DNA of 58,519 nt, from NCBI GenBank assembly GCA_020849655.1, contig JADLFU010000191.1, positions 1-58,519 on the forward strand. The letters are read 5' to 3'. Below the pieces are notes generated by a model. That model did not search any database. It had not been told where the DNA came from and saw nothing but the letters and a program-made list of their open reading frames with translations. Positions 4,171 to 8,554 of this stretch are shown here, piece by piece; the first letter of the stretch is position 1, and the number at the start of each line of letters is the position of its first letter. The translations under genes and the position numbers were made by a program. The DNA is from Polyangiaceae bacterium (GTDB lineage: Bacteria > Myxococcota_A > Polyangia > Polyangiales > Polyangiaceae).

Positions 4171-5520
4171 TCAGGGCTGGCGCACCGACAGGATGGTCGC
4201 CATGCCGCCGGCCGCGTGCGTCAAGAGGTGACAGTGCGCCATCCACTCGCCGGGCAGCGCGGGGCGCACGAGCACCCGCCGCGTCGAGAACGGCTCGAGC
4301 GCCGTCGTGTCCTCCCACGACTCGAACCCGGGCGGCGCGCCGTCGACCGAGAAGACGCGGAACGGGTGCCCGTGCAGGTGAAACGGGTGGCGCGTGCTCG
4401 AGAGGTTCCGCAGCTCGATGACGAGCTCCTGGCCGAGCGGCGCCGGGGTGGGCGTGACGTCGGGGAACCGCTCGCCGTTGATGCGCAGATCGCTGCCCTC
4501 GCCGCCTCCGGTGAACACCCACGTCGCGTCGACCGGTCGCGCGAGGTCGACGGCGGGCAGCGCGGGCGCCCCCCACGCTCGCGAGGCAGGCGCGTCGAGC
4601 TCGCCGGTCGGCGCGACCGAGAGCAGGGTCACCGCGTCGCCGCCGACCGGGCCGACGACCGAGTCGGGCAGCGCGACGACGTCGAACGGCGAGGCGCCGA
4701 CGCGCCACTCGACCTCGGCGCGATCCCCTGGCATCAGCGGGACCTCGTCGGCGTCGTGGGGCGCGGGGAGCAGCCCCTGATCGGTGCCGATCACGCGCAC
4801 CCCGGGCCACGACAGGCGCAGCGGCGCGTCCGCGGACGCGTTGACCAGCCGCGCGCGCACCACCGTGCCCGACGCGAGCGACAGCGACGGGGACCGCGCG
4901 CCGTTGACGAGCCACGACTGGCCGCGGCGGTAGTCCACCGACAGCGGCGTGGCGTGCGCGTGCGACGGCGGATCGAACGCCTCGCCCGGCACCTCGGAGA
5001 ACACGAGCACCACCTCCTCGGCGGCTGGATCGCGCGGATCCTCGATGATGAGCGCGCCGTAGAGGCCCGCCCTCACCTGTGTCACCGCGCCGACGTGCGG
5101 GTGGTACCAGAACGTCCCCGCGCGCTCCGCGACGAAGCGATACGTGAACCGCTCGCCGGGCGCGACCGGCGGCGCGCCATGGCCGTCACCGTCCATCTCG
5201 TACGGCAGGTGCACCCCGTGCAGATGGATCGTGGTCGGCTCCGCGAGCTGGTTGTCGAGGGTGACCTCGACGGTGTCTCCCACCCGCGCGCGCACCGTCG
5301 GCCCTGGGCTCGCGCCGCTGTAGCCGAGCCTCGTCGTCGACCCGCCGAGCGGCGCCGCGCGCAGCGACACCGCGACGTGGTCCGCGCGCGGATCGAGATC
5401 GGCCGCGAGCGGCGGCGATCCGAAAGGGGTCGTCACGACCGCATCGCGCGGCCGGTCGAGCTCTCCGCCCGCGCACGCGACGGCGGCGACGACGACGCCG
5501 AGCGCCCACGCGCGCCTCAT
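4171..5520 (-). CDS. exported multicopper oxidase
   Basis: 449 residues. The ATG at 5520 overlaps the cytochrome stop (ATGA) and directly precedes a signal sequence with a possible lipobox ending at Cys16. All four copper motifs are present: HLH at 99-101, WYHPH ending at 142, HPFHLHGHPF about 60 residues before the end, and HCHLLTHAAGGM (His429, Cys430, His431, His435, Met440). Type 1 and trinuclear copper ligands therefore look complete. The family oxidises phenols, Cu(I), Fe(II) or Mn(II) with O2, and the substrate cannot be read from sequence. Linkage to a pentaheme cytochrome suggests electron exchange with it (inference). Confidence 0.9.
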   Translation of the reverse strand: MRRAWALGVVVAAVACAGGELDRPRDAVVTTPFGSPPLAADLDPRADHVAVSLRAAPLGGSTTRLGYSGASPGPTVRARVGDTVEVTLDNQLAEPTTIHLHGVHLPYEMDGDGHGAPPVAPGERFTYRFVAERAGTFWYHPHVGAVTQVRAGLYGALIIEDPRDPAAEEVVLVFSEVPGEAFDPPSHAHATPLSVDYRRGQSWLVNGARSPSLSLASGTVVRARLVNASADAPLRLSWPGVRVIGTDQGLLPAPHDADEVPLMPGDRAEVEWRVGASPFDVVALPDSVVGPVGGDAVTLLSVAPTGELDAPASRAWGAPALPAVDLARPVDATWVFTGGGEGSDLRINGERFPDVTPTPAPLGQELVIELRNLSSTRHPFHLHGHPFRVFSVDGAPPGFESWEDTTALEPFSTRRVLVRPALPGEWMAHCHLLTHAAGGMATILSVRQP

Positions 5521-7553
5521 CGCGTCACCTCGACCTCGACGCGGTCCCGCGGGGCCCACCCGCGCTCGTCGGAGAGCCACGGAGGGAAGGCCCGGTGGAC
5601 GATCCGCGCCGTCACCTTCGGCTTCTCGCACGTGGAGGCGAACGCGTGGTGCGTGACGGCCGCGCGCCCGGGCATCAGGCGATCGTCGAAGAGCACGTCG
5701 GTCGCCATGAAGTGAGGCGCCTGCACCCGCCCCGAGGCGTCGACGAGCGCGCGCGCGAACGCGAAGCCGGGCGTGAAGGCGAGGCGCGCCGCCCGCCCGT
5801 CCGGCGTCGAGCCCGGCGCGTCCGCGAGCACGATCACGTCGCCCTTCGGCAGCGGGGCGTCGAGCGTCACCAGCCCGTCCGGCGTGACGGCCGTGATGGT
5901 GCGGACGCCGGCGAGCGCCTCCTCGGGGAGTCCCTTCTCGGACGCGGGCAGCGCGCCCTTCGCGAAGCGCCCCGGGCCGTCGTAGTCTCGCGGCGCGCCC
6001 GAGCGCGTGACGACGCGCAGCTGCTGGCCGATCCGCGCGCCGGGCCAGCGCGACCAGTCCTCGCCGGCCACCTTGCGCGCGTACGCCCCGCCGAGCTCGG
6101 GCACGACGTCGCCGCCTGTCGGCGCGAGCGCGACGCCGTCGCAGGTGGCCTCGACGAGCAGCAAGAGCGCGCGCATCGACTCACCGCTCGGCAGCGCGTG
6201 GCCGGCGCCGCGGTTGGTGAGCGTCGCGTCGACCTCGAGCGTGGCGCCCACGACGCGGGTCGAGAGGTCGAGCGTCAGCGCGAGCGCCGCGAGATCGCGC
6301 TCGCCGCGCGGCCCGCAGAACTTGTGGTCGTGCACGGCGCCCGGCGGGCGAGGCCAGCCCGACGCGAGGTCCGCGTTGGGATCGTGATGCTCTCCGCCCG
6401 CGGCGTTCGCGACGTCGAGCCGGCCGCCGTGGCAGCTCTGGCAAGGCACGCCGGCCATCGGCCCCTCCGCCCACTCGGTCGAGGTCGAGTCGACCGCGAG
6501 CACGCCGTCGGGCGCGCGCACGGACGGGGCGACCGTCACCGATAGCTCGTGGCAGCCGGTGCACAGCTGGCCGTCCTTGAAGATCGTGCGGCCGACCGAG
6601 CCCATGCGCGGCAGGCCGACGTCGCCGTAGGGGCCGAAGGTGATCGGGAGGCGGCCGCTCGGGCCGGGGCCGGGCTCGCTGGGCCGAAGGACGCGGAGCT
6701 TGCCGGCGACGCCGGGCGCGCCGAGATCGCGGATGGACTCGACCTTGTGGCAGAGATCGCAGTGGACGCCCCCGTCGAACGCCGCGTCGCGCGCCTCGAG
6801 CAGGTCCCTGCCGCCGAGCGCGCCGTCGATCGCGGGCGCGTGGCAGTCCGCGCACCCGGCGAACTTCGTCGCGGTCACGTCGCAGGGCGGGGCCGCGCAC
6901 GATGGGTTCGCGCGCGCGAGCGCCGAGTCGCCGACGTAGCAGCGCGGCGTGAGGCCGTCGGCGCCGGGGGTGCGCCCGGGGACGCGCGTGCCGCCGACGT
7001 CGGCGCACGCGTCGTCGGTGTCGCGCGCCGCCGCGGTGCCGGCGTAGAGATCATGGACGCGGGGGTTCGACGCGGACGTCGAGTGCGCGGACTCCTCGAA
7101 GCCCGCGGAGATCGCCCCGTGGCAGTGCGCGCACTCGGCCGCGGTGCCCGCGACGCCCGCGCGACCGGGGGGGCCGAAGCGGTACGCGGGATCGTCGACG
7201 TCGGCGTACGCGTGCAGCTCGAGCTCGAGGCGCGTCGACGGATCGACCCGCACGCCGCGCGCGCGCGCCGTCGGGAAGCTCGCGACGATCCAGCGCTCGC
7301 CGGGCACGCTGGGGTCGAGCGGGACCTCCGCGTCTCCCTGCCCGTTGGTGGTCACCTTGCGCTCTGCGCCGCCCTGCGACACCGACGCGCCGAAGGCGGG
7401 CACGCCGTCGATCGTGACCCGCACCCGCTGCACGGTCGCGGACGGTGCGGCGACGGGCGCCGCGCCCTCGGCGCTCTCGGACGTCTGACACGCGCCCACC
7501 GCGCCCGCGGACGCGAGGCTCACGGCGAGCGCGAGGTGCCGCGCGGTCTTCAT
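5517..7553 (-). CDS. pentaheme c-type cytochrome lipoprotein
   Basis: 678 residues from the ATG at 7553. An upstream open extension is ignored because the signal peptide starts here. Lipobox VGAC (Cys22). Residues about 40-120 resemble a small beta-sandwich of the carboxypeptidase-regulatory type. Five heme-binding CXXCH sites follow: CAHCH 141, CADCH 234, CDLCH 265, CTGCH 331 and CQSCH 371. After them comes RGAGHALPSG near 448-457, resembling a motif seen in other multiheme cytochromes. Extra His residues (HSTS, VHDL, HDHKF) could be distal ligands. It probably sits in the envelope as an electron carrier. It overlaps the multicopper oxidase by 4 nt and follows the barrel-like gene after 77 bp. 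Confidence 0.85.
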   Translation of the reverse strand: MKTARHLALAVSLASAGAVGACQTSESAEGAAPVAAPSATVQRVRVTIDGVPAFGASVSQGGAERKVTTNGQGDAEVPLDPSVPGERWIVASFPTARARGVRVDPSTRLELELHAYADVDDPAYRFGPPGRAGVAGTAAECAHCHGAISAGFEESAHSTSASNPRVHDLYAGTAAARDTDDACADVGGTRVPGRTPGADGLTPRCYVGDSALARANPSCAAPPCDVTATKFAGCADCHAPAIDGALGGRDLLEARDAAFDGGVHCDLCHKVESIRDLGAPGVAGKLRVLRPSEPGPGPSGRLPITFGPYGDVGLPRMGSVGRTIFKDGQLCTGCHELSVTVAPSVRAPDGVLAVDSTSTEWAEGPMAGVPCQSCHGGRLDVANAAGGEHHDPNADLASGWPRPPGAVHDHKFCGPRGERDLAALALTLDLSTRVVGATLEVDATLTNRGAGHALPSGESMRALLLLVEATCDGVALAPTGGDVVPELGGAYARKVAGEDWSRWPGARIGQQLRVVTRSGAPRDYDGPGRFAKGALPASEKGLPEEALAGVRTITAVTPDGLVTLDAPLPKGDVIVLADAPGSTPDGRAARLAFTPGFAFARALVDASGRVQAPHFMATDVLFDDRLMPGRAAVTHHAFASTCEKPKVTARIVHRAFPPWLSDERGWAPRDRVEVEVTR

Positions 7554-7630
7554 GGGGTGCGCGTACCACTCCTCTGCGCGTGCCGGGCGCCCAAGGCTTC
7601 GCGCATGACGGAGGTCACGCGGCGGGCGCG

Positions 7631-8554
7631 TCACGGCGAGAGCACCTGACCGCGGTGCTCGAGCGGCGCGTCCGCGGGCCCCGTCATGTCGAACGACCAG
7701 ACCCCGAGCACGTAGACGAACTGCTGCACCAGCCCCGGCCGGTCGAGCGGAAGGTCGCGCTCGTACGCAACATGCACCTCGAAGGGCGCCCTGTGGAGGA
7801 TCAGCTCGGGCGTCACGTCGAGCTCGGTCGGCCGGAGCGCGTGGCGCTCCCGGTCGGTGAAGAACGTGGTGTCCACGCCGACCGACACGAGATCGTCGAG
7901 CACCGAGAGCTCGACGTGCGCCGCGTAGCGGAGGAGCGCGAGGCCGGTGTTGTCCGGGCGCGCGGCGTACGTCGGGTTGTAGGTAAACCAACCTAGCGTC
8001 AGCCACCCCGAGACGTCTCCGCCGTGGAGGGCGGGGCCGAGCTTCCGCGCGAGGGCCGCGAGGGAGTAGAGGTACCGCGCGCGCACGTCGGCGTACGACT
8101 GCGAGAAGCCGCTCCTGTCGGCGGGGGCGTCGCGCTCGCCGCGCGCGCCGAGCTCGAGCGCGCCGGGGCCGAGCGGCCACGTCGTCGTGACGCCGGAGAT
8201 GACGTCCACCTCGCTCGGTCGAAGGACCCGCGCGCCCTTCACCTTGCGATCGGTGAAGAGGTTCACGTCGAGCGGGACGGAGAGGCGGCGCCCGATGAGA
8301 TCGAGATCGGCGTGCACCGCGTAGCGGAGGAGCGCGAGACCGGTGTTGTCAGGCCGCGCGCCGTAGCTCGGGTTGTGCAGGGAGACGCCGAGCGTGGCCG
8401 CGCCGGAGAGGTTGATCCCCTCGTCGGCGCCCTGCACGTCCCCTCCGTGCGCGCTGCCTTGCTTGTCGAGCGCGCGCGCGACGCCTGACGTGAGCAGCCC
8501 GGCGAGCGGCAGCGAGAGCGCGAAGAGGAGGGGCGGAGGGTGACGGCGCTGCAC
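7631..8554 (-). CDS. putative outer-membrane beta-barrel protein with internal duplication
   Basis: 307 residues with a cleavable-type signal peptide ending near VARA. Alternating hydrophobic/polar stretches rich in Tyr, Leu and Thr suggest a beta-barrel (inference). Two halves repeat: NPSYGARPDNTGLALLRYA then LFTDR in the first, and NPTYAARPDNTGLALLRYA then FFTDR in the second, each followed by LRP(S/T)E(V/L)DV. No heme or metal motif. It is the first gene of the minus-strand run with the pentaheme cytochrome and multicopper oxidase, so it may be the outer-membrane partner. The family is not recognised. Confidence 0.7.
   Translation of the reverse strand: MQRRHPPPLLFALSLPLAGLLTSGVARALDKQGSAHGGDVQGADEGINLSGAATLGVSLHNPSYGARPDNTGLALLRYAVHADLDLIGRRLSVPLDVNLFTDRKVKGARVLRPSEVDVISGVTTTWPLGPGALELGARGERDAPADRSGFSQSYADVRARYLYSLAALARKLGPALHGGDVSGWLTLGWFTYNPTYAARPDNTGLALLRYAAHVELSVLDDLVSVGVDTTFFTDRERHALRPTELDVTPELILHRAPFEVHVAYERDLPLDRPGLVQQFVYVLGVWSFDMTGPADAPLEHRGQVLSP

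Follow-up and report, generated by a model that had tools for sequence, protein, structure and literature searches.

Which of three neighbouring envelope genes in a Polyangiaceae genome form a functional unit, and where would electrons entering that unit go? The genes lie on the minus strand of contig JADLFU010000191.1, whose whole stretch of 58,519 nucleotides was analysed and is referred to here as the window, and they encode a 307-aa exported protein, a five-haem cytochrome lipoprotein and a multicopper oxidase (MCO). The original prediction, made from the sequence, had read them as a porin-like protein, a cytochrome and an oxidase encoded in one overlapping run. All three open reading frames are present at the coordinates given for them, as are the five CXXCH sites and the complete copper-ligand motifs:

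4171–5520, minus strand: MCO (P0003), ATG start, 449 aa, three-domain and laccase-like, lipobox Cys16
5517–7553, minus strand: pentahaem cytochrome lipoprotein of the PHC family as modelled (P0002), ATG start, 678 aa, lipobox Cys22
5517–5520, minus strand: ATGA, the 4 nt shared by the cytochrome stop and the MCO start, read from the sequence
7631–8554, minus strand: exported 307-aa protein (P0001), putative barrel, GTG start, outside the unit
7119–7133, minus strand: haem site 1, motif CAHCH, cytochrome residues 141–145
6840–6854, minus strand: haem site 2, motif CADCH, residues 234–238
6747–6761, minus strand: haem site 3, motif CDLCH, residues 265–269
6549–6563, minus strand: haem site 4, motif CTGCH, residues 331–335
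6429–6443, minus strand: haem site 5, motif CQSCH, residues 371–375
5218–5226, minus strand: MCO ligands H99 and H101 (HLH, in motif HLHG), from motif and family invariance
5095–5109, minus strand: MCO ligands H140 and H142 (WYHPH), from motif and family invariance
4366–4389, minus strand: MCO ligands H378, H381 and H383 (HPFHLHGH), from motif and family invariance
4201–4236, minus strand: MCO ligands H429, C430, H431, H435 and M440 (HCHLLTHAAGGM), type-1 site with axial Met
8057–8464 and 7682–8044, minus strand: the two repeats of P0001, about 140 aa each, from internal alignment

The predicted 4-nt overlap of the cytochrome and MCO genes is real, whereas the 307-aa gene, which lies upstream, is separated from the cytochrome gene by 77 nt. 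The overlapping run therefore consists of two genes, not three. Scans for promoters and terminators found nothing.

The haem-binding pattern is unlikely to mislead. Exactly five CXXCH sites occur in 82/82 full-length family members, and no other called protein of the window contains CXXCH, so the pattern is not a matter of chance. Five other residues, H143, H157, M317, H410 and H452, are likewise invariant in 82/82 cytochromes, together with two further cysteines, C183 and C205; these histidines and methionine, which are not the histidines of the CXXCH sites, are candidate distal haem ligands. An AlphaFold2 model built with 68 homologs (pLDDT 91.2, pTM 0.88) predicts a transthyretin/carboxypeptidase-regulatory-like domain at about residues 38–117, a haem domain at about 120–415 and a C-terminal beta domain at about 421–678. 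Its best structural match is 5ze8 (Z 20.3, rmsd 2.8 Å over 337 residues, 23% identity, model range 123–678); the next row of the structure search reaches Z 11.8 with the N-terminal domain only, and the rows besides 5ze8 mostly match the transthyretin-like domain. The family profile also finds 5ze8 (E 7e-15), with the haem sites aligned. On the strength of this fold match and profile hit, the modelled 678-aa cytochrome is a member of the PHC/c552 pentahaem family, which has also been taken to include ExtKL and the cable-bacterium PHCs (PMC11976967).

The MCO is recognised by Cu-oxidase_3 (PF07732; 8e-35, 119.9 bits against a cut-off of 21) and Cu-oxidase_2 (PF07731; 7e-30, 104 bits against 20.4), while its middle Cu-oxidase domain, at 14.6 bits, stays under the cut-off of 21. 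The nearest solved relatives are Thermus-type laccases (E 6e-52), and the laccase-type motif set HxH, HxH, HxxHxH and HCHxxxHxxxxM, with ten histidines, one cysteine and the axial methionine, is complete. Thirteen copper-motif positions were examined: the twelve ligands H99, H101, H140, H142, H378, H381, H383, H429, C430, H431, H435 and M440 are invariant in 42/42 PHC-linked MCOs, and H385 is variable and not a ligand. Since every named copper ligand is kept in all 42 partners, the protein should function as an oxidase. Its score reaches 151.9 bits against the CueO NCBIfam equivalog (cut-off 525) and 138.4 bits against CopA/PcoA TIGR01480 (cut-off 478.95), and it has 5 Met in 449 aa; with so few methionines and scores so far under both cut-offs, the protein shows no sign of a Met-rich Cu(I) site. 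The same genome holds a second lipoprotein MCO (G000:C109; L092:9927-11339, minus strand), unlinked and 36% identical, whose gene shares 4 nt with the gene of an exported 272-aa protein.

The distribution of these genes was surveyed in 237, then 379 Myxococcota genomes and in the GTDB contig collection, which was scanned with two short peptide patterns, so that members outside Myxococcota may have escaped the scan. The loci stem mostly from metagenome assemblies, and a simple gene caller set the gene boundaries in other genomes. PHC relatives occur in about one-fifth of genomes (70/379 at E < 1e-60; 80 loci in another count). The titles of L106, L137 (named Klebsiella pneumoniae) and L144 (Bifidobacterium breve) are evidently wrong, as these loci cluster with Myxococcota. 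A tree of the PHCs (83 rows) splits into clades I and II at 100% SH-aLRT. Among the 59 rows of clade I, the MCO is next door in 40 and fused in 2, the contig end is too near in 7 and an MCO is absent in 10; it is thus directly downstream or fused in 42/52 loci with enough downstream sequence, and a downstream MCO is found in none of the 24 rows of clade II. The exact 4-nt overlap recurs in 26 of the 38 two-gene pairs, and cultured carriers of the pair include Plesiocystis pacifica SIR-1 and Enhygromyxa salina SWB007.

Two lineages carry the pair as a single protein. L064 (1150 aa) and L079/L148 (1139 aa; the same genome region) join five CXXCH sites and every copper ligand in one frame, and as they are placed in different parts of clade I, fusion most likely arose at least twice. 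Two further PHCs (L080:7017-10391 and L082:7034-10330, both minus strand) have a C-terminal extension of about 340 aa that lacks copper ligands. It weakly resembles MCO domain 3, scoring 14.3 bits in L082 (shuffle maximum 1.5) and only 3.5 in L080, which is suggestive of a possible decayed PHC-MCO fusion.

The oxidases tell the same story of association. Linked MCOs group in one clade (support 96), apart from 14 unlinked MCOs that these genomes also encode, and score 247–334 bits where matched in one piece, against 206 or less for the unlinked proteins. PHC and MCO distance matrices correlate at r 0.64 (permutation maximum 0.19), a value to which shared species history contributes. Cytochrome and MCO form a unit that is deeply conserved and co-inherited, and the earlier suggestion that these two proteins belong together is borne out by adjacency, 4-nt overlap and fusions. 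The combination had also been called no standard system, and the literature agrees as far as it was searched: open-access sources yielded no account of a PHC-MCO pair, which is weak evidence of absence.

The 307-aa protein has a different history. A signal-peptidase-I-like site (A-x-A, then L-D/N-K-Q) common to all six homologs indicates that it is probably exported. It is a tandem duplication of a unit of about 140 aa, a feature absent from the original prediction, with halves 41% identical (E 6e-28), and it represents an orphan exported family, 'ALDKQGSAHGG', with this duplicated unit and an RPDN motif, sparse in Myxococcota. The beta-barrel once proposed for it finds no confirmation: Pfam gives no match, NCBIfam no significant match and the PDB profile search came back empty, an AlphaFold model from two sequences has pLDDT 28, and its 11–12 evenly spread amphipathic segments, about six per repeat, are suggestive but amount to a count that 192 of 1000 shuffled sequences reach. 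Relatives exist in five other genomes in total, namely 4 of 237 phylum genomes, none of which has a full-length cytochrome, and the Myxococcota MAG KLAP97 (L098). The last, whose cytochrome is the nearest relative found (71% identical), is the only relative with all three genes, and there two unrelated genes, a small lipoprotein and a DinB-like protein (identified by eye only), separate the 307-aa gene from the cytochrome gene. A lipoprotein of about 160 aa adjoins the 307-aa gene in L094 and L098.

The trio was accordingly rejected as one conserved module: its synteny across Myxococcota, which the original prediction had named as a check, comes down to L098 and is not contiguous. The porin-cytochrome conduit is likewise unsupported at this locus, because outside the window the three genes meet only in that genome, with intervening genes, and the putative barrel gene otherwise occurs without a full-length PHC. 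The 307-aa protein is a passer-by, not part of the cytochrome-MCO unit.

What, then, does the remaining pair do? Many Myxococcota make a five-haem envelope cytochrome alongside a copper oxidase dedicated to it, most likely as a way for haem electrons to reach O2 via copper. In the specific form of this idea, to which we give an even chance, the two proteins are halves of one enzyme, the lipoprotein PHC supplying the MCO's type-1 copper with electrons that go on to O2. Electrons taken up by the five haems from a donor in the periplasm or at the surface would be passed on to the type-1 copper, and the trinuclear copper site would reduce O2 to water; the net result would be a membrane-anchored, non-pumping cytochrome:O2 oxidoreductase, in whose fused versions haem-to-copper transfer would become intramolecular. 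The type-1 copper of laccase-type enzymes is higher in potential, and transfer to it from a low-potential haem is downhill. As the c552 of Thermochromatium tepidum is a low-potential cytochrome (PMC11976967), electrons passing from haem via copper to O2 would run in the favourable direction. The fusions and the family also agree best with the direction from cytochrome to MCO to O2. We infer this direction, O2 as the acceptor, the location and the purpose, which might be electron disposal or protection against O2 or metals. The genome of the window encodes three haem-copper oxidase subunits I, so the pair would be an accessory rather than the sole oxidase. Moreover, the PHC would also work with other partners or alone, since 10 clade-I members and all of clade II have no downstream MCO.

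The genes that surround the pair in its relatives bear on the competing explanations. The best surviving of these, rather unlikely in our judgement, is copper detoxification, in which the MCO would oxidise periplasmic Cu(I) (or Fe(II)), the cytochrome would take or supply electrons and the pair would serve copper homeostasis, in the way that CueO-, PcoA- and CopA-type MCOs function in copper resistance (PMC5566968). Copper-efflux genes do flank the pair or the PHC in several genomes: L113 has a CusA/CzcA RND protein (TIGR00914), a CsoR/RicR-type repressor and a copper P-type ATPase (TIGR01511), then the PHC with a 4-nt overlap; in L120, genes for a CsoR-type repressor and for an SO_0444-like Cu/Zn efflux protein containing a CopZ-like domain come after PHC-MCO; and in L050/L051 (the same loci as L145/L109), DUF3347 precedes PHC-MCO, with OEP, CusB with HMBD and RND genes after it. 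The genome context favours copper in some relatives. However, such genes lie near only about 10/58 clade-I loci against 2/24 clade-II loci (Fisher p 0.49, not significant), none of the copper genes tested for was found in the 58-kb window, and the Met-poor MCO falls far below the CueO and CopA cut-offs.

A second alternative, distinctly unlikely, keeps the outer-membrane setting of the original prediction: the MCO would oxidise Fe(II), Mn(II) or phenols outside the cell, or the PHC would exchange electrons extracellularly via a porin, the barrel being the 307-aa protein or another. Lipoboxes on both cytochrome and MCO agree with this (lipobox counts in the survey come from a simple pattern), and the PHC relatives include ExtKL, while kinship with an archaeal cytochrome nanowire has also been proposed (PMC11976967). 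In L107/L048, which belong to the family of the window's own genome, further genes come after the pair, encoding a 412-aa CXXCH protein that resembles a haem-tethered porin, a cupredoxin-domain protein and an azurin-like protein; this context fits an electron-transport role. Against it, haem-porin-like genes lie near 3/58 clade-I loci and no porin is conserved there, while the 307-aa protein is neither co-conserved nor a proven barrel.

Other redox neighbours are diverse. In L074/L143 a CCP/MauG gene (CCP_MauG), another oxidant-reducing partner, lies directly upstream of the PHC. In seven loci (L132, L134, L137, L138, L139, L142 and L155), repeat proteins of about 870 aa with PF11617 (MopE-type metal-binding motif) are encoded directly upstream of PHC-MCO. 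Clade II PHCs (L157, L162, L165, L168, L087) are often preceded by a two-CXXCH protein of about 315–375 aa, mostly with a short overlap. Thioredoxin/redoxin-like lipoproteins beside PHCs carry an in-frame TGA at the first active-site Cys (W-U-x-x-C) and are probable selenoproteins; a redoxin-like gene at L074:12655-13362 has Cys at that position instead:

L083:9420-10232, minus strand; L086:10504-11280, minus strand; L087:11226-11951, minus strand; L107:5316-5960, plus strand; L157:1608-2378, plus strand; L168:3996-4772, plus strand: TGA-bearing redoxin-like genes
L062:2600-3892, minus strand; L079:628-1860, minus strand; L053:9048-9743, minus strand: TGA-bearing redoxin-like genes of a second type

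These neighbours (CCP_MauG in L074, the two-CXXCH and thioredoxin-like proteins in clade II) and the 10 clade-I copies without an adjacent MCO would suit mere operon partners, co-regulated in one stress response with different substrates and no direct electron transfer, but co-regulation alone would hardly account for two natural fusions, the 4-nt coupling and a single clade of linked MCOs, which make this very unlikely.

Electron transfer from PHC to MCO, if it occurs, would give multihaem electron pools a new path to O2 that lies outside the inner membrane, with consequences for the handling of metals, O2 and surface electrons by aerobic myxobacteria. The PHC family (c552, ExtKL, cable-bacterium PHCs) is without a settled function, and a dedicated, sometimes fused, O2-reactive partner offers a concrete and testable one; the natural fusion lends itself to expression as one polypeptide. 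It is possible, though we put it forward tentatively, that the pair represents a previously undescribed respiratory-type class, a pentahaem-multicopper O2 reductase anchored as lipoproteins in the periplasm or at the surface, which passes the electrons of a multihaem pool straight to O2 in a broad range of Myxococcota and is unrelated to haem-copper, bd and alternative oxidases.

Comparison with known systems places the pair among familiar parts in an unfamiliar arrangement. The cytochrome resembles T. tepidum c552 (5ZE8) and the PHC family (ExtKL, cable-bacterium sPHC and lPHC) in the order of its five haem sites, its C-terminal beta domain and its predicted fold, and differs at 23% identity by its N-terminal domain (38–117), lipobox and dedicated or fused MCO. 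With the three-domain MCOs (Thermus laccase, CueO, CopA-PcoA) the oxidase has complete T1/T2/T3 ligands in common, and its best PDB matches are laccases; unlike CueO and CopA, it is a Met-poor lipoprotein far under those family cut-offs, in a clade of its own and linked to a PHC. The OmpB/MofABC and PcoAB proposals for metal oxidation likewise cluster an MCO gene with a cytochrome c (MofC) or a porin (PcoB), as set out in PMC5566968; their partner is a cytochrome of the MofC type or the PcoB barrel, that of the present MCO a pentahaem protein of the PHC family, a contrast drawn by description only, and the part of that source consulted describes no fusion, whereas PHC and MCO are fused in two lineages here. 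Closest in logic are the cable-bacterium fusions of lPHC with truncated haemoglobin, for which a role as alternative terminal oxidase has been proposed (PMC11976967): both join a PHC to an O2-reactive domain, but in the Myxococcota this domain is a copper MCO rather than a globin, and it is usually encoded by the second of two overlapping genes.
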